From NCBI RefSeq assembly GCF_947241125.1, contig NZ_OX365700.1, positions 744,001-808,000 of the forward strand: a stretch of DNA of 64,000 bases. Reading direction: 5' to 3'. Both the position numbers and the translations under genes were made by a program. The notes beneath the pieces are model-generated. The model was not told the origin of the DNA. It ran no database searches and saw only the letters and a list, made by a program, of their open reading frames with translations. Shown one piece after another: positions 49,424 through 55,448 of this stretch (positions are counted from its first letter, which is position 1; each line of letters opens with the position of its first letter). The DNA is from Nitrospira tepida (GTDB taxonomy: Bacteria > Nitrospirota > Nitrospiria > Nitrospirales > Nitrospiraceae).

Positions 49424-50824
49424 ATGACCGACATCACCGCGTTGACGGTGGGGGCCGGTGTTGGAATCCTGGCAGGGGCGCTGATCGCGGGCTGGTGGGT
49501 CGCGGCGCACCTGCGCCGGCGTTTCCACGATCAGGTGATGGAGGCGGCGGAGCGCGCCCAAAAGGCGGAAACCGTTGTAGCCGAGCTGAGGCGACGCGCC
49601 GAACTGGAGCAGGCGGAGATCGTCCGGTTGCGGGCCTCGCTCAGTGAATCCCAACAGGCCTTCGTGGCGGCGGAGACGAGGCGCGAAGAAGCGTTGAAGC
49701 GGGTGGAGGAACAGCAGGCCATCCTGGCTCAGGCCCGGCTTGAATTAGCGGAAACCTTTCAGGCCCTCTCGGGGACGGCCTTGCAGCGGAACAACGAGGC
49801 CTTTCTCAATCTCGCCAAAACGACCTTTCAAGCCATACAGGCCGAGGCCAAGGGCGAATGGTCTCGACGGCATCAGGCGATCGACGACCTGGTGAAACCG
49901 CTCCACGATCAGCTCGGCCGGTATGCCGACCAGTTGCAGCAACTGGAACAGTCTCGACAGGCCGCCTATGGGGGGCTCGACCAACATCTGCGGCTGCTGG
50001 CCGAGTCGCAGCAGCGGTTGCAGCAGGAAACCGGGCAGCTCGTCAACGCCTTGCGGACGCCGGCCGTCCGGGGGCGCTGGGGAGAGATGACGCTCAGACG
50101 GGTGGCGGAGCTGGCCGGCATGGTGCCGCATTGCGACTTCTTCGAGCAGGAGAGCGTGGTCTCGGAGGAGGGCCGCGCGCGGCCGGACATGCTGGTGCGG
50201 TTGCCGGGCGGCCGGCAGATCGTCATCGACGCGAAGGCCGTCTTGAGCGCTTATCTCGAAGCCCATGACGCGCCGAATGACGACCAGCGGGCGGAGCGGC
50301 TGAAGCGACACGCCGCGCAGATCCGCGCCCGAATGGAGGAGCTGAGCCTCAAGGCCTACTGGACCCAGTTCAATCTGGCGCCGGAGTTCGTGGTGTTGTT
50401 CCTGCCAGGCGAGCAATTTCTGGGCGCGGCCCTCGAACAGGACCCGACCCTGATCGAGGACGGGTTTTCCCGGGGCGTGGTGGTGGCCACGCCGACGACG
50501 CTCATGGCGCTCCTGCGGGCGGTGGCCTACGGCTGGCGGCAGGAACAGTTGACCGCGCATGCGCAGGAGGCCGGTCGCTTGGGAAAGGACCTCTACGAGC
50601 GGATGGCCCTGCTCGCGCAGTATCTCAACGAGATCGGCGCGGCGCTGGGAAAAAGCGTCGCGGCCTACAATCGCGCGGTCGGGTCGCTGGAAAGCCGGGT
50701 CTGGCCGGCTGCGCGCAAATTCAAGGACCTGGGTATTGCCACGGAAAAAGAGGTGCCGCTGATCGAGCCGGTGGAGGTTTTCCCGCGACAATCTTCACAG
50801 ATCGAAGCGGAGAAGATCATTTAG
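49424..50824 (+). CDS. rmuC: DNA recombination protein RmuC
   Basis: 466 residues. An N-terminal hydrophobic anchor (LTVGAGVGILAGALIAGWWV) is followed by a long coiled coil (about 35-200) and the RmuC nuclease-like core: VRGRWGEMTLRRVAELAGM, RPDMLVRLPGGRQIVIDAKA with the PD-(D/E)xK-like Asp and Lys, and FVVLFLPGEQFLGAAL. RmuC limits recombination at inverted repeats and has recently been linked to anti-plasmid or phage effects in some bacteria. It sits immediately left of the AT-rich nucleotide cassette. Confidence 0.93.
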   Translation: MTDITALTVGAGVGILAGALIAGWWVAAHLRRRFHDQVMEAAERAQKAETVVAELRRRAELEQAEIVRLRASLSESQQAFVAAETRREEALKRVEEQQAILAQARLELAETFQALSGTALQRNNEAFLNLAKTTFQAIQAEAKGEWSRRHQAIDDLVKPLHDQLGRYADQLQQLEQSRQAAYGGLDQHLRLLAESQQRLQQETGQLVNALRTPAVRGRWGEMTLRRVAELAGMVPHCDFFEQESVVSEEGRARPDMLVRLPGGRQIVIDAKAVLSAYLEAHDAPNDDQRAERLKRHAAQIRARMEELSLKAYWTQFNLAPEFVVLFLPGEQFLGAALEQDPTLIEDGFSRGVVVATPTTLMALLRAVAYGWRQEQLTAHAQEAGRLGKDLYERMALLAQYLNEIGAALGKSVAAYNRAVGSLESRVWPAARKFKDLGIATEKEVPLIEPVEVFPRQSSQIEAEKII

Positions 50825-50885
50825 ACGGTAACAGCAGCAGGAATTTCTTGCGCGACGTTCATCTTTGAACAGGTCGCGGAGAAAC

Positions 50886-50915
50886 TTTACATTCAGTATC
50901 TGACTAGTCTACATT
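50886..50915 (+). promoter_or_regulatory. Candidate promoter of the nuclease/PurZ-like cassette
   Basis: TTTACA (50886-50891; five of six to TTGACA), 18-base spacer, TACATT (50910-50915; four of six to TATAAT). It lies about 55 bases before the GTG at 50972, in a locally AT-rich stretch just after rmuC. It is the only promoter-like pair I see before the cassette. Confidence 0.4.
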
Positions 50916-50971
50916 CCGACCGATCAACGGCGGAGACGCTATTCACGGGTTGTGCTGCGAAGGACTTGATA

Positions 50972-52558
50972 GTGTCGACGACCAATGAAATTCTTCCTCG
51001 TACATTCCTTCACGCGCCTCGGGTAGGACAGAAAACCGAGAAAGCGCTCTGGGAGAGCGGTATCACTTCCTGGGGCAAGTTTCTCAATTCTTCTTCAACC
51101 CTGCTTAAGCCACTGCGTTCACAACCCCAAGTTTTCCGGATCATCGAGCAGTCGGCGGAAGCCCTCGAGAAGAAGAACGTCACATTTTTTTCTCGGGCTC
51201 TAGCTCCCGAGGCGTGGTGGCGCCTCTATCCAAGCTTTGAATCAAGGACTGTTTTTTTGGACATTGAGACGACGGGTCTCTCTCACTACTACGATGAAAT
51301 CACGCTCGTGGGGCTCTATGACGGCAATCGGGTGCGGACCTTGCTGTCGGGTCATAACCTGAAGCAGTTGCCGGAACTCCTCGCCCAGTACGACATCGTC
51401 GTCACCTTTAACGGGACATTGTTTGACCTCCCATTCCTGAGGGCGAAACTGCCATCTCTTCGTCTGCCATCGGTGCATCTCGACCTGCGTTATCTCCTCA
51501 AGCGACTAGGCTATTCGGGTGGGCTTAAAGACATTGAGCAAAGACTGGGTATTCGGCGGGGTCCTGAGGCACGGGCCGTGAATGGCTATCTGGCCACCGT
51601 ATTGTGGGCGCGCTACAAACGAGGCGACATGTCGGCCTTGGAACAGCTCGTCAAATACAATATCGCGGATGTGATGAGCCTTCGCCCTCTCATGCGGTTT
51701 GCCTGCCGCGAGCTGACGGCGGGCCTGTTGTTCAGAGAGAAGCAGCGGATACCGACGATCACATCAAAACCTCTCAAAGCCGTCCCAGTCCATGTCTCCA
51801 AGGTCAATGGCAACGGGGTTACCCTGATTGTTGGTGGTGCCGCGGTCTTGCTTCGTAAACGCCCGCTCGAACGGTCGCCTATCAGGCTGAGCAATCTATT
51901 AGAGAACATTCAGTGCTCAGGAGGGGCTCCCAGGGTTGTTGGAATCGATCTACGCGGAAGTGAGGTGAGACCGACGGGATGGGCCTTGCTTGAAGGTGAG
52001 CAAGCCTACACCAGATTGGTGAAATCGGATGCCGAAATCGTGCAGGAAACAATCCGCCACCGTCCGGACCTTATCTCAATCGATTCTCCATTAGGCATTC
52101 CATACGGACGCTGCTGCACTCAGGATTCATGTCGATGTCGAAGCAAAGGAATCTTGAGGGAGTGCGAACGAGTGCTGTGGAGACGAGGTGTCAAGGTGTT
52201 TCCCTGCCTGCTCCCGAGTATGCAGAAGCTGACCGAGCGCGGCATCCGTCTCGCCAAAGAGTTCCGCGAACGGGGCTTCCGCGTCATCGAAAGTTACCCT
52301 GGGGCGGCCCAAGACATCATGCGTATTCCGAGAAAGAGATCGAGTGTGCATGAACTGGCTCAGGGGTTAGCCGCCTTCGGCATCAAGGGGCCGTTTACAT
52401 CTGTCCCCTGCAGCCATGATGAGTTGGACGCCATCACGTCCGCTGTCGTCGGCGACTTCTACCTTGCCGGGATGTATGAACCACTCGGTGATCAGCGCGA
52501 GGAGTGCTTGATCGTCCCAAAACTGGATAAGCTCATGTCTCACAACCCCGACAGCTAA
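50972..52558 (+). CDS. Two-domain nuclease: DEDD-type RNase H-like exonuclease fused to DUF429
   Basis: 528 residues from GTG 50972 (GAAGGA seven bases upstream; TTG 50966 is possible). Residues 1-90 form a helical N-terminus with ESGITSWGKFLN-type helix-hairpin-helix flavour. About 90-250 is an RNase_H_2/YprB-like exonuclease domain: VFLDIETTG, VVTFNGTLFDLPFLRAKLP and YNIADVMSLRPLM supply the DEDD acidic residues. About 320-510 is a DUF429 domain: VVGIDLRGSE, LISIDSPLG, RVIESYPGAAQ and HDELDAITSA give a second RNase H-fold acidic site. CCTQDSCRCRSKG in the middle is Cys-rich. It is followed six bases later by the PurZ-like gene, so the two are surely co-expressed. Confidence 0.8.
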   Translation: MSTTNEILPRTFLHAPRVGQKTEKALWESGITSWGKFLNSSSTLLKPLRSQPQVFRIIEQSAEALEKKNVTFFSRALAPEAWWRLYPSFESRTVFLDIETTGLSHYYDEITLVGLYDGNRVRTLLSGHNLKQLPELLAQYDIVVTFNGTLFDLPFLRAKLPSLRLPSVHLDLRYLLKRLGYSGGLKDIEQRLGIRRGPEARAVNGYLATVLWARYKRGDMSALEQLVKYNIADVMSLRPLMRFACRELTAGLLFREKQRIPTITSKPLKAVPVHVSKVNGNGVTLIVGGAAVLLRKRPLERSPIRLSNLLENIQCSGGAPRVVGIDLRGSEVRPTGWALLEGEQAYTRLVKSDAEIVQETIRHRPDLISIDSPLGIPYGRCCTQDSCRCRSKGILRECERVLWRRGVKVFPCLLPSMQKLTERGIRLAKEFRERGFRVIESYPGAAQDIMRIPRKRSSVHELAQGLAAFGIKGPFTSVPCSHDELDAITSAVVGDFYLAGMYEPLGDQREECLIVPKLDKLMSHNPDS

Positions 52559-52564
52559 AGAACA

Positions 52565-53614
52565 ATGCCTCTCACGGTGGTGGTCGGTGGACAGTTTGGA
52601 TCGGAAGGGAAGGGCAAGGTAACTTCTTACCTTGCCCTGCGGGACCGCGTTGACATCGTGGTGCGCTGCGGGGGACCGAATTCGGGCCACACGGTGGATG
52701 TGGACGGCCAGCGTTACGAGCTACGCCTGCTCCCATGTGGGTTCCTTAATCCTAACACCCGCCTCCTGCTCGCCGCTGGTTCGTTGATCGCTCCGGACAT
52801 CCTGTTAGCGGAGATTAAGGCGGCTGGGATCGATGCCAGCCGAGTGGGGGTAGACCGTAATGCAGGCATCATCTCAGGCGATTACGCTGAAGAGGAGAAG
52901 AAGCTGCTCTTAAGAGATCGTCTCGGGTCAACCTTATCTGGGACAGGGATCGCGGTGGCCTATCGCGTCTTACGGAAACCCGATTTCAAGCTTGCCAAGG
53001 ATATCCCAGAACTGAAGCCATTTCTCACGGATGTGTCTGCAGAGGTCAATGGGGTGCTGGATAAAGGCGGGAAGGTCATCATTGAAGGGACGCAAGGATT
53101 CGGCCTCTCCGTCTACCATTCGCCACACTATCCCTATGCCACGAGCCGGGATACGACAGCGAGTGGGTTTCTGAGCGAAGTCGGGGTGAGCCCGCGGTTA
53201 GTGACCGACATCGTGATGGCGGTCCGTACCTATCCCATTCGAGTCGCTGGTAGTTCCGGGCCGCTGCTGAATGAGGTTACGTGGGAGGAAGTCCGCCGGA
53301 GAAGTGGATATCCAACTGATATTCGCGAATTCACAACGACGACCAAGAAACTTAGAAGGGTAGGCCTATTCGATCTTGAGTTGGTACGGCGGGCTGTAAT
53401 GGTGAACAGGCCAACTCAAATTGCTCTCCACGGAGCAGATTATCTTTCGTACTTGAACAAGTCTGTGAGGACACATGAGGAGCTAGATCATCTTACGCGC
53501 TCCTTTATCACAGACCTGGAGAATGCAACCGGCGTTCCTGTGTCAATAACAGGAACGGGGCCAGCGAACGAAGAATTGATAGATAGAGGCAATCACTTTC
53601 ATGGAGCTTCCTGA
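52565..53614 (+). CDS. Short adenylosuccinate synthetase homologue, PurZ-like
   Basis: 349 residues, about 80 fewer than housekeeping PurA. The P-loop reads GGQFGSEGKGK: Ser13 stands where PurA has its catalytic Asp13, while His42 (NSGHT) is kept. Other motifs: RLLLAAGSLIAPD, IEGTQGFGLSVYH, YPYATSRDTTASG and a substrate loop TTTTKKLRRVG (257-267) in place of the PurA VTGRxRRxGW. The Asp-to-Ser change, the short length and the TKKxRRV loop are, as I know them, marks of PurZ, which condenses dGMP with aspartate on the way to 2-aminoadenine. The compact form is shared with archaeal PurA. Substrate dGMP or another purine nucleotide is inference. Its 3' end overlaps the next gene by 14 bases. Confidence 0.82.
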   Translation: MPLTVVVGGQFGSEGKGKVTSYLALRDRVDIVVRCGGPNSGHTVDVDGQRYELRLLPCGFLNPNTRLLLAAGSLIAPDILLAEIKAAGIDASRVGVDRNAGIISGDYAEEEKKLLLRDRLGSTLSGTGIAVAYRVLRKPDFKLAKDIPELKPFLTDVSAEVNGVLDKGGKVIIEGTQGFGLSVYHSPHYPYATSRDTTASGFLSEVGVSPRLVTDIVMAVRTYPIRVAGSSGPLLNEVTWEEVRRRSGYPTDIREFTTTTKKLRRVGLFDLELVRRAVMVNRPTQIALHGADYLSYLNKSVRTHEELDHLTRSFITDLENATGVPVSITGTGPANEELIDRGNHFHGAS

Positions 53615-54710
53615 GTCCTACAAGCAACCGAAGCCAGAAGTGAAAGAAGAAGATTTCTGGCTGGATCCTGACAAGGATTCTCCTGCTGGTCTCCTACTTT
53701 CTGACCGCATTAAGTTCTACAGGGAAAAAGTAAATCTAATCTATCCATTCGATGAGAAGTTTCTAGAGCCTGCCTCTTATACGCTTCATGCAGGTGGTGA
53801 GTATCTAATTCATGACGAGAGTGGCAAGAGAATCTCAGGAGTTTTGGGGGCAGCCGGCAAAGTCATAATTCCCCCGAATGGCCTCATCTATATAAGATTT
53901 CTTGAGGAAGTTAATATTCCCCACTACATGATTGCTAGGTTCAATCTCCGAGTAAAACAAGTTTATCGTGGATTGCTTCTGGGAACCGGACCTCAGGTAG
54001 ACCCGGGCTTCAGGGGGCACCTCGGCTGTCCATTACATAACTTCACAAATGAAGAAAAAGCGATCGAGTTTTTTGAAAAGTTAGTAACCATAGATTTTGA
54101 AAAAACTACTCCGCTGGGCCAGAAGTATTTTGCGGACAAAAATCCTGAGAAATTGGGTGCTCAAGACTTCGGTCAGATGCGACACGGGTTAATTACGGTG
54201 ACCGGACTTAGCAATTACCCGTGCAAGATATACAACAAAGAACAAGATCGCCCACTAAGAGATTATTTGCCGCAGGGTGAAAGTGTCCAAAGCTCAGTGT
54301 TCGAACTTCAGACTGAAGTGAAGCATCTGCGAGACGAGGTGAAGGAATTTGGAAGTACCATCCAGAGATACAGAAATATCGGTATTTGGTCCCTAATTGG
54401 AACAGCTCTTACGCTTGTAGGTGGTTTGGTGACGCTCGACTTGTATCTGCACCAGAGCTTGGAAAGCAAATACTTGAACTTGGAAACCAACTTTTTTAGC
54501 GGCTACATGAATCTGAAAGACAATTACCAGAATATTAAAGATAGCATTTCTGAAATTAACAAGACGTTGGGTCACCTTGAGGCTGTAAAGGATATCAGCA
54601 TAACAGCACGAGGCGAATCAGCGACAAGCTCAATGGCCAAAGAGTCCCCAAAGTTAAAGGAGCAGAGCACTAAAGCTAATAGCGGCAAGAAGCAGGCAGG
54701 GAGAGATTAG
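53601..54710 (+). CDS. Membrane-tethered dCTP deaminase/dUTPase-fold protein
   Basis: 369 residues. Residues 28-190 have the dCTP deaminase/dUTPase fold: FLEPASYTLHAGGEYLI, IIPPNGLIYIRFLEEVNIP, then GTGPQVDPGFRGHLGCPLHN with the VDPGFRG turn that carries the nucleotide-site Asp near residue 133. A coiled coil (SSVFELQTEVKHLRDEVKEF) leads to one membrane helix (IGIWSLIGTALTLVGGLVTL, about 259-280), then a second helical, polar tail rich in Lys and Ser. The dCTP deaminase catalytic Glu is not obvious in the PLHNFTN stretch, so catalysis is uncertain. The gene is the most AT-rich of the cassette. It starts inside the PurZ-like gene and ends two bases before the NUDIX-like gene. Confidence 0.72.
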   Translation: MELPESYKQPKPEVKEEDFWLDPDKDSPAGLLLSDRIKFYREKVNLIYPFDEKFLEPASYTLHAGGEYLIHDESGKRISGVLGAAGKVIIPPNGLIYIRFLEEVNIPHYMIARFNLRVKQVYRGLLLGTGPQVDPGFRGHLGCPLHNFTNEEKAIEFFEKLVTIDFEKTTPLGQKYFADKNPEKLGAQDFGQMRHGLITVTGLSNYPCKIYNKEQDRPLRDYLPQGESVQSSVFELQTEVKHLRDEVKEFGSTIQRYRNIGIWSLIGTALTLVGGLVTLDLYLHQSLESKYLNLETNFFSGYMNLKDNYQNIKDSISEINKTLGHLEAVKDISITARGESATSSMAKESPKLKEQSTKANSGKKQAGRD

Positions 54711-54712
54711 TT

Positions 54713-55381
54713 ATGGGGCAGTTGGTTCTTGTGTGTGAAACTTCGCTCATCAGAAAGTTCGGTGGATTCCAGGGTTATTCTCTTGACCTTGCAGTTGGGC
54801 TAGTAACGGTCCTTAACCCTATGAATAATTTCTTCGTCGAACGAGATCGTGCTGAGAAAGATCCTGCATACAAACAACTCATACCTTATGTTGTCCTGAG
54901 ATGTGGAGACTACGTCTTTAGCTATGTTCGAGGCAGGAACTCCAGTGAGTCTCGCCTTGTAGCAATGAGATCTATTGGCGTTGGTGGGCATATCGAGCCG
55001 GCCGATCAAAGCCTGTTCTCGTCAGATCGTGAGATGTACTTGGATGCTGCACGGCGCGAAGTACGTGAGGAAGTGAAAATCGACACACCCTACGTTGAGT
55101 ACGTTGTGGCGCTCATCAACGATGATTCAACCGACGTGGGAAAAGTTCATCTCGGTATCATGCATATCTGGGATTTGGCTGAGCCCAAGGTGACGAAGCG
55201 TGAAGGTCTTATCACCCAAGCGGGATTTGTTCCCATTGCGAGACTGAAGAACGCTCGCGAGGAATTGGAAACGTGGTCCCAGATTGCCCTGGATGTTCTT
55301 GAGGATCCGCGAGTCCCTGGTTGGAGTGAGCCCAATATGATGCAGAAAGGTGTTGCATCCTCGAAGGCGGTTGAGAAATGA
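54713..55381 (+). CDS. NUDIX-like hydrolase
   Basis: 222 residues. FQGYSLDL and AYKQLIPYVVLRCGDYVFSYVRG precede SIGVGGHIEPADQ and, after an insertion, AARREVREEVKI, which together form a modified Nudix box (G...REVxEEV). VALINDDSTDVGKVHLGIMH and LITQAGFVPIARL complete the fold. This resembles a phage- and bacteria-borne NUDIX subfamily with the RxSIGVGGHI motif. Such enzymes hydrolyse nucleoside diphosphates linked to another group; in the Z-nucleotide pathway a dGTP pyrophosphohydrolase (MazZ) supplies dGMP, and a NUDIX enzyme could play that part here, which is inference. It is the last gene of the cassette. Confidence 0.75.
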   Translation: MGQLVLVCETSLIRKFGGFQGYSLDLAVGLVTVLNPMNNFFVERDRAEKDPAYKQLIPYVVLRCGDYVFSYVRGRNSSESRLVAMRSIGVGGHIEPADQSLFSSDREMYLDAARREVREEVKIDTPYVEYVVALINDDSTDVGKVHLGIMHIWDLAEPKVTKREGLITQAGFVPIARLKNAREELETWSQIALDVLEDPRVPGWSEPNMMQKGVASSKAVEK

Positions 55382-55448
55382 GACCTGGTCTTGTGGTGTT
55401 CTGCTTTCGGCTACCAAGTGGGCAAAACGGTTTCTTGCGGTTAGGTCG

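Follow-up and report, generated by a model that had tools for sequence, protein, structure and literature searches.

A Three-Gene Cassette Shared by Many Bacterial Phyla

A stretch of 64,000 nucleotides from the 4.73-Mb genome of Nitrospira tepida (GCF_947241125.1, contig NZ_OX365700.1, positions 744,001 to 808,000; hereafter the window) carries three adjoining genes, A, B, and C, that encode a nuclease, a PurZ-type adenylosuccinate synthetase, and a protein with a dCTP deaminase/dUTPase (DCD) fold and a predicted membrane anchor. That A-B-C is a conserved module is virtually certain; these three genes are the core, and the locus is one copy of a horizontally spread bacterial system found in multiple phyla. 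A role of the core in defence is probable. Our favoured and still tentative proposal is that the cassette is an undescribed system of defence: deoxyguanosine monophosphate (dGMP) freed by A would be turned by B into a Z-type nucleotide, to which C would respond at the membrane.

A scan of 84,980 species genomes with a profile of C returned 79 loci, or 77 after two redundant ones were removed. As loci were found through C, all co-occurrence counts hold for C-positive loci only, and the prevalence is a minimum. B was present in 75 of the 77 loci and A, B, and C together in 67. The order A-B-C on one strand was observed in 64, with gaps of at most 60 bp between A and B in 62 of these ordered loci and between B and C in 53. 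Because the order recurs in 64 of the 77 loci, each of them fetched independently, chance adjacency is not a tenable explanation. The hosts of the 77 loci span 13-14 phyla; the total is given as a range because an identical cassette in two metagenome-assembled genomes labelled Dehalococcoidia and Binatia (L034 and L035), probably a case of mis-binning, was counted once. Mantel tests show that pairwise divergence is correlated among the three proteins (N = 72; r = 0.74 for A-B, 0.59 for A-C, and 0.68 for B-C; 0 of 999 permutations as high), a correlation to which shared host history contributes as well.

An earlier, sequence-only reading of this DNA had taken four genes, A to D, as one unit and looked to recurrence elsewhere and to congruent trees for its support. 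The set does occur outside close relatives, in the 13-14 phyla given above, and its core proteins do diverge in a correlated manner. The unit itself shrinks to A-B-C, with D detected, among the examined loci, only in the window genome and two genomes of the same family (L021 and L133). A phage home for the cassette was rejected: at the sensitivities used, 50,697 phage records yielded no relative of C, and none was confirmed in viral contigs of IMG/VR.

Active Sites and Domains of the Core Proteins

Gene B (52565-53614, forward strand) encodes a short, archaeal-like protein of 349 amino acids (aa) that matches Adenylsucc_synt in Pfam (7e-56) and the NCBIfam PurZ model NF038379 (7.3e-69) with 232 bits, under the model's cut-off of 300 bits, so that we label it PurZ-type and not PurZ. 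Residues that separate PurZ from PurA have been described, namely a change of Asp13, an insertion, and an altered Arg303 loop (PMC8342488). At the position of the catalytic Asp13, which is kept in PurA references, 84 cassette B proteins have Ser (80, including that of the window) or Gly (4) and never Asp. The window B further has an RVAGSSG insertion past a conserved Val and an altered Arg303 loop (TTTTKKLRR), a pattern common to phage PurZ and absent from PurA. In phylogenetic reconstruction, cassette B proteins and phage PurZ group together, apart from PurA (99*), and phage PurZ is nested among cassette B with moderate support. B is not the genome's own PurA, as a separate housekeeping purA is encoded at G000:C1:~3.75 Mb, and one ordinary PurA was likewise present in addition to B in 12 of 12 genomes checked. 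B probably performs PurZ-type chemistry. The PurZ-like call of the sequence-only reading is upheld by the Asp13 change, the insertion, and the Arg303 loop, and is qualified by the sub-threshold score.

Gene A (50966/50972-52558, forward strand; starting at TTG 50966 or GTG 50972) encodes a 530-aa protein with HhH, a DEDDy 3'-5' exonuclease resembling MrfB/YprB, and a DUF429 RuvC-like nuclease; the Pfam matches are RNase_H_2 (DEDD, PF13482; 1.9e-32) and DUF429 (4.3e-5). All 57 aligned A proteins keep the DEDD residues D99, E101, D154, Y231, and D235 and, in the DUF429 region, D328, D373, E442, H484, D485, E486, and D488. The AlphaFold model (predicted local distance difference test score, pLDDT, 88) has structural matches among NrnC/diDNase, polymerase exonuclease, and RuvC folds, and the DEDD part of A matches the MrfB structure 8un9. 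A C-terminal P-loop nucleotide kinase domain (AAA_18) is present in 55 of the 57; its best solved relative is the AdkA-like 3lw7, and it matches the PADLOC dCTPase model (6e-8 to 6e-13). The window A itself has only partial PADLOC matches, to DEDDh and PDC-S44. In a variant of about 920 aa (L040, 5114-7891), HhH_8 and a PHP phosphoesterase stand in place of the DEDD exonuclease; A proteins of about 920 aa are also encoded in L075 (1978-4728) and L076 (208-2961).

Gene C (53601-54710, forward strand) encodes a 369-aa protein with a DCD/dUTPase-fold domain at about residues 30-170, a predicted transmembrane segment at about 260-280, and a long C-terminal helix. It matches Pfam DCD above that model's cut-off (1.1e-7) and TIGR02274 (2.3e-9) under its cut-off (37 bits against 92.8). 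The AlphaFold model (pLDDT 81) aligns to Dcd and dUTPase structures with Z scores of 17-19, the best match being a Thermococcus dUTPase (8y1w; Z score 18.8; 33% identity across 142 columns). Among 75 C proteins, the deaminase Glu (E138 of Escherichia coli Dcd) is an invariant Pro144, and the phosphate-loop Ser is replaced by Phe in 72 and His in three. A set of pocket positions (R113, N115, G128-P131 including T129, D134, P144, H146, and N147) are invariant in all 75. C as a dCTP deaminase was rejected because of the loss of the catalytic Glu. The sequence-only reading had called C a membrane-anchored protein of the dCTP deaminase/dUTPase fold; the fold and a predicted anchor were recovered. 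The protein is not recognisable as a dCTP deaminase and does not look like a classical dUTPase either, keeping the conserved Asp (D134) of that family and departing from its RS[SG] phosphate loop. A transmembrane segment was predicted in 80 of 82 C proteins, and the other two end at contig ends.

C is also the most variable part of the cassette, with extra copies in several loci. Identity between the window and L021 is 68% for A, 84% for B, and 26% for C; between L080 and L098 it is 86%, 79%, and 34%; and between L060 and L082 it is 72% for B and 25% for C. C thus looks swapped between close relatives, or fast-evolving. L021 (9012-10441, G127) carries a C of another subtype than the window's, with about 410 bp between C and D, as would fit an exchange of C within a cassette that is orthologous in its other parts. 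DCD-domain proteins also lie close to helix-turn-helix, ImmA/IrrE, and C1-peptidase genes in L008 (3182-8871) and L011 (5167-9031); that of L011 has a predicted transmembrane segment, and in L008 the next gene carries the annotation 'putative DNA base hypermodification protein'.

Insertion Site and Defence-Gene Neighbourhood

All four open reading frames of the window cassette lie head to tail, and the distances noted earlier (A-B 6, B-C -14, and C-D 2 bases) were borne out by their coordinates, as were the domain calls for all four genes by Pfam and NCBIfam profile matches. Guanine-plus-cytosine (GC) content is 55% in A, 55% in B, 44% in C, and 50% in D, against 64-66% in flanking genes, and that of C differs from, and is below, the rest of the cassette. 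The low-GC insertion (50825-55448) lies between RmuC (49424-50824) and a PilZ gene (start at about 55449). Within the window's bacterial family, full-length A was found in five of 118 genomes, and a stand-alone DEDD protein of about 280 aa in nearly all. RmuC precedes the cassette in all five carriers, and PilZ-panC-folK follows it in the three for which the downstream flank was in the data (the window, L021, and L133). The site is vacant in most relatives, and in eleven of them RmuC is followed by PilZ at a spacing of about 0.4-0.5 kb. The cassette is therefore a sporadic, low-GC insertion at a single site within this family.

The sequence-only reading had also pointed to known defence genes beside the set as a check, and these are enriched. 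In 30 genomes searched against PADLOC at a threshold of 1e-10, 118 flanking genes matched 247 families; 116 size-matched control genes, taken in these genomes from the beginning of contig 1, matched 23. Because PADLOC models overlap, such family counts do not equal numbers of genes; the family with the most matches had eight members in the flanks and three in the controls. HsdR (PF04313) had 49 matches across the 190.5 Mb of 37 carrier genomes and fell inside the locus of about 19 kb in seven of the 37, against 0.22 expected (P = 4e-9, or 8e-5 when the signal is counted as about four independent neighbourhoods). No full-length match to the set was found in PADLOC-DB 2.0.0 (2023), where B, C, and D were unmatched, and a full-text literature search, with most subscription journals outside its reach, returned no paper describing such a gene set.

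A Tentative Mechanism and Its Alternatives

From the domain content of the proteins we infer the following chain of events. A would engage invading or damaged DNA and degrade it from 3' ends to deoxynucleoside 5'-monophosphates (5'-dNMPs), including dGMP. From dGMP and aspartate, B would form N6-succino-2-amino-dAMP, a compound that host PurB could convert to the Z-type monophosphate dZMP. Further phosphorylation might be carried out by the kinase domain of A, by an accessory deoxynucleoside kinase, or by host kinases. C would recognise the non-canonical nucleotide, a part suggested for it because it has a deoxynucleoside triphosphate (dNTP)-binding fold from which the deaminase residue has been lost, and would act as a membrane effector that stops growth or kills the infected cell. 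The NUDIX protein D in the window, and an HD nucleotidase elsewhere, may clear the nucleotide or by-products. That a nucleotide signals to a membrane effector in this manner is a possibility that we hold with reserve.

Several observations weigh against this proposal. A was missing from 10 of the 77 loci with C, in some through contig ends. The kinase domain is absent from the window A, and no kinase gene takes its place at this locus. The score of the window B under the curated PurZ cut-off, a cut-off exceeded by B in none of 12 other genomes checked, implies that its substrate could differ from dGMP. In C, no pore or toxic domain of a known kind was recognised beyond the one transmembrane segment and the long helix. 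C may be a hydrolase and not a sensor, since the Asp of the dUTPase/DCD family (D134) is kept in all 75 proteins and archaeal dUTPases are its most similar structures. Finally, the type I restriction-modification signal stems partly from related alphaproteobacterial loci.

Depletion of the nucleotide pool is an established defence strategy, as in dCTP deaminase and dGTPase systems. The alternative that survives best, unlikely in our estimation, is an attack on the pool in which deoxyguanylate is drained: B would consume dGMP, C would be an active, dUTPase-like dNTP diphosphatase bound to the membrane, and A would destroy DNA against salvage. The resemblance of C to 8y1w and the invariant D134 are in its favour, as is an analogy with phage S-2L, where MazZ produces dGMP for PurZ (PMC8342488), C supplying dGMP to B as in Z-phages. 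However, all C proteins have Phe or His for the phosphate-loop Ser and Pro for the Glu, and depletion alone explains neither the membrane anchor, nor the fusion of nuclease and kinase, nor the swapping of C. The sequence-only reading had set depletion of nucleotides beside their alteration; PurZ-type B favours 2-amino-purine nucleotide synthesis over plain depletion.

We rank next an operon for nucleotide salvage or DNA repair, with A acting like MrfB in mitomycin repair and without a part in defence, which would be a still less likely explanation. Every part is a nucleotide or DNA enzyme, the DEDD part of A matches MrfB, and the insertion site is fixed within the window's family. Yet only five of 118 family genomes carry the cassette, whereas nearly all carry the stand-alone DEDD paralogue; an ordinary PurA is additionally present wherever checked; and the low GC content, the neighbourhood of defence genes, and the divergence of C are at odds with housekeeping.

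Behind it stands the marking of DNA, which we regard as improbable, whereby the DNA of the host or of plasmids would receive some 2-aminoadenine and DNA without it would be degraded by A, a form of restriction-modification by base substitution. A PurZ-type B, two nuclease domains plus HhH in A, and the HD nucleotidases that accompany some versions would suit such a role, and Z does enter chromosomal and plasmid DNA of E. coli upon expression of a Z-cluster, although that expression is toxic to the cell (PMC8342488). Against it, the core has no gene like DatZ, MazZ, or DpoZ, the HD protein matches Atu1052/YfbR, and C is left without a role. Hitch-hiking of adjacent, functionally separate genes, to which a lineage-specific D and an exchange of C independent of A and B might point, is very unlikely given the conserved order, short gaps, and correlated divergence over 13-14 phyla.

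Accessory Genes and Related Sets

Gene D (54713-55381, forward strand) encodes a 222-aa Tm1382-like NUDIX hydrolase (NUDIX, 5e-4; Tm1382, 3e57, 7.5e-24) and is a lineage-specific accessory; D as a part of the core was rejected, since among the examined loci it accompanies only the cassettes of the window, L021, and L133. Other loci have other partners. A deoxynucleoside kinase gene adjoins C in 20 loci, and a few B-C pairs have an HD nucleotidase gene upstream that resembles YfbR/Atu1052; DatZ was rejected as its identity, there being no DatZ match. A family of about 249 aa occurs in 23 cassette loci with varying position and strand (L090:10014-10748 and 22 relatives); its DPDNG motif is invariant, its QxRYxxDxGD start is conserved, and it had no matches in Pfam or PADLOC.

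A second set was observed on Rhizobium and Agrobacterium plasmids (L009:8960-13427, L013:4812-9096, L014:4796-9106, L016:5443-12471, and L017:5443-9908). It comprises a fusion of a P-loop kinase to a PurZ-type protein (about 534 aa), a DUF7002 protein, a YfbR-like HD gene, and a protein of about 457 aa without a Pfam match. Some of these sets adjoin SIR2, AbiE, AbiJ-NTD4, or RelA/SpoT genes, and relatives of the fusion are also found in actinobacteria (L041 and L042). A Rhizobium leguminosarum plasmid carries a folE-purA-purB-queE-IMPDH-nitrile hydratase-queC cluster (L012:5375-12904) that looks like 7-deazapurine nucleoside biosynthesis and whose PurA retains Asp13.

Comparison with Known Systems

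The sequence-only reading held that the set fully matches neither the known antiphage strategies directed at the dNTP pool nor Z-nucleotide synthesis by phages. PADLOC gave no full-length match, and Z-cluster partners are absent from the core. A has nuclease families in common with the DEDD exonuclease MrfB/YprB and with DUF429 proteins (PADLOC candidate PDC-S44); unlike them, it fuses both, usually with a kinase, and is tied to B and C. C has its fold in common with the archaeal DCD-type dUTPase 8y1w, whose RSSL loop reads RFNL in C, and has the membrane segment and long helix in addition. Defence by AvcID and dCTP deaminases is likewise nucleotide-based, and the PADLOC dCTPase model picks up the kinase domain of A relatives. 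Whereas AvcD is a zinc-dependent deaminase, C has a different fold, lacks the deaminase residues, and is predicted to be membrane-anchored.

With the phage Z-cluster (PurZ, DatZ, MazZ, and DpoZ) the cassette has in common the PurZ active-site signature of B. In contrast to that cluster, it is chromosomal in bacteria, its core is without DatZ, MazZ, and DpoZ, its B scores under the PurZ cut-off, and no HD or MazG domain was found in A-D with Pfam. PurZ-type enzymes have been described as a phage route to Z-genomes, in a group with only four cellular sequences, all archaeal (PMC12884076). In the present operon, which bacteria of at least 13 phyla carry, they are a core component beside a nuclease, a membrane protein, and, in most cases, a kinase. 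It is rather doubtful that a Z-type deoxynucleotide serves as an immune messenger in many phyla and that phage PurZ derives from an immune enzyme; if true, this would offer an origin for phage PurZ and extend immunity by base-modified nucleotides from deoxyinosine triphosphate (dITP) to Z-type nucleotides.

In Kongming (KomABC), dITP made from dAMP is the messenger, KomB senses it, and KomC depletes nicotinamide adenine dinucleotide (PMC12948488). No Kongming-type deaminase or SIR2 domain was found in A-D by profile searches; the cassette instead has a PurZ-type synthetase, a nuclease or nuclease-kinase, and a membrane DCD-fold protein. A purine-modifying enzyme that yields a non-canonical deoxynucleotide, kinases, and a sensor, reported for Kongming (PMC12948488), are what we propose for the cassette, and by this analogy Kongming is the nearest precedent for the proposed mechanism.

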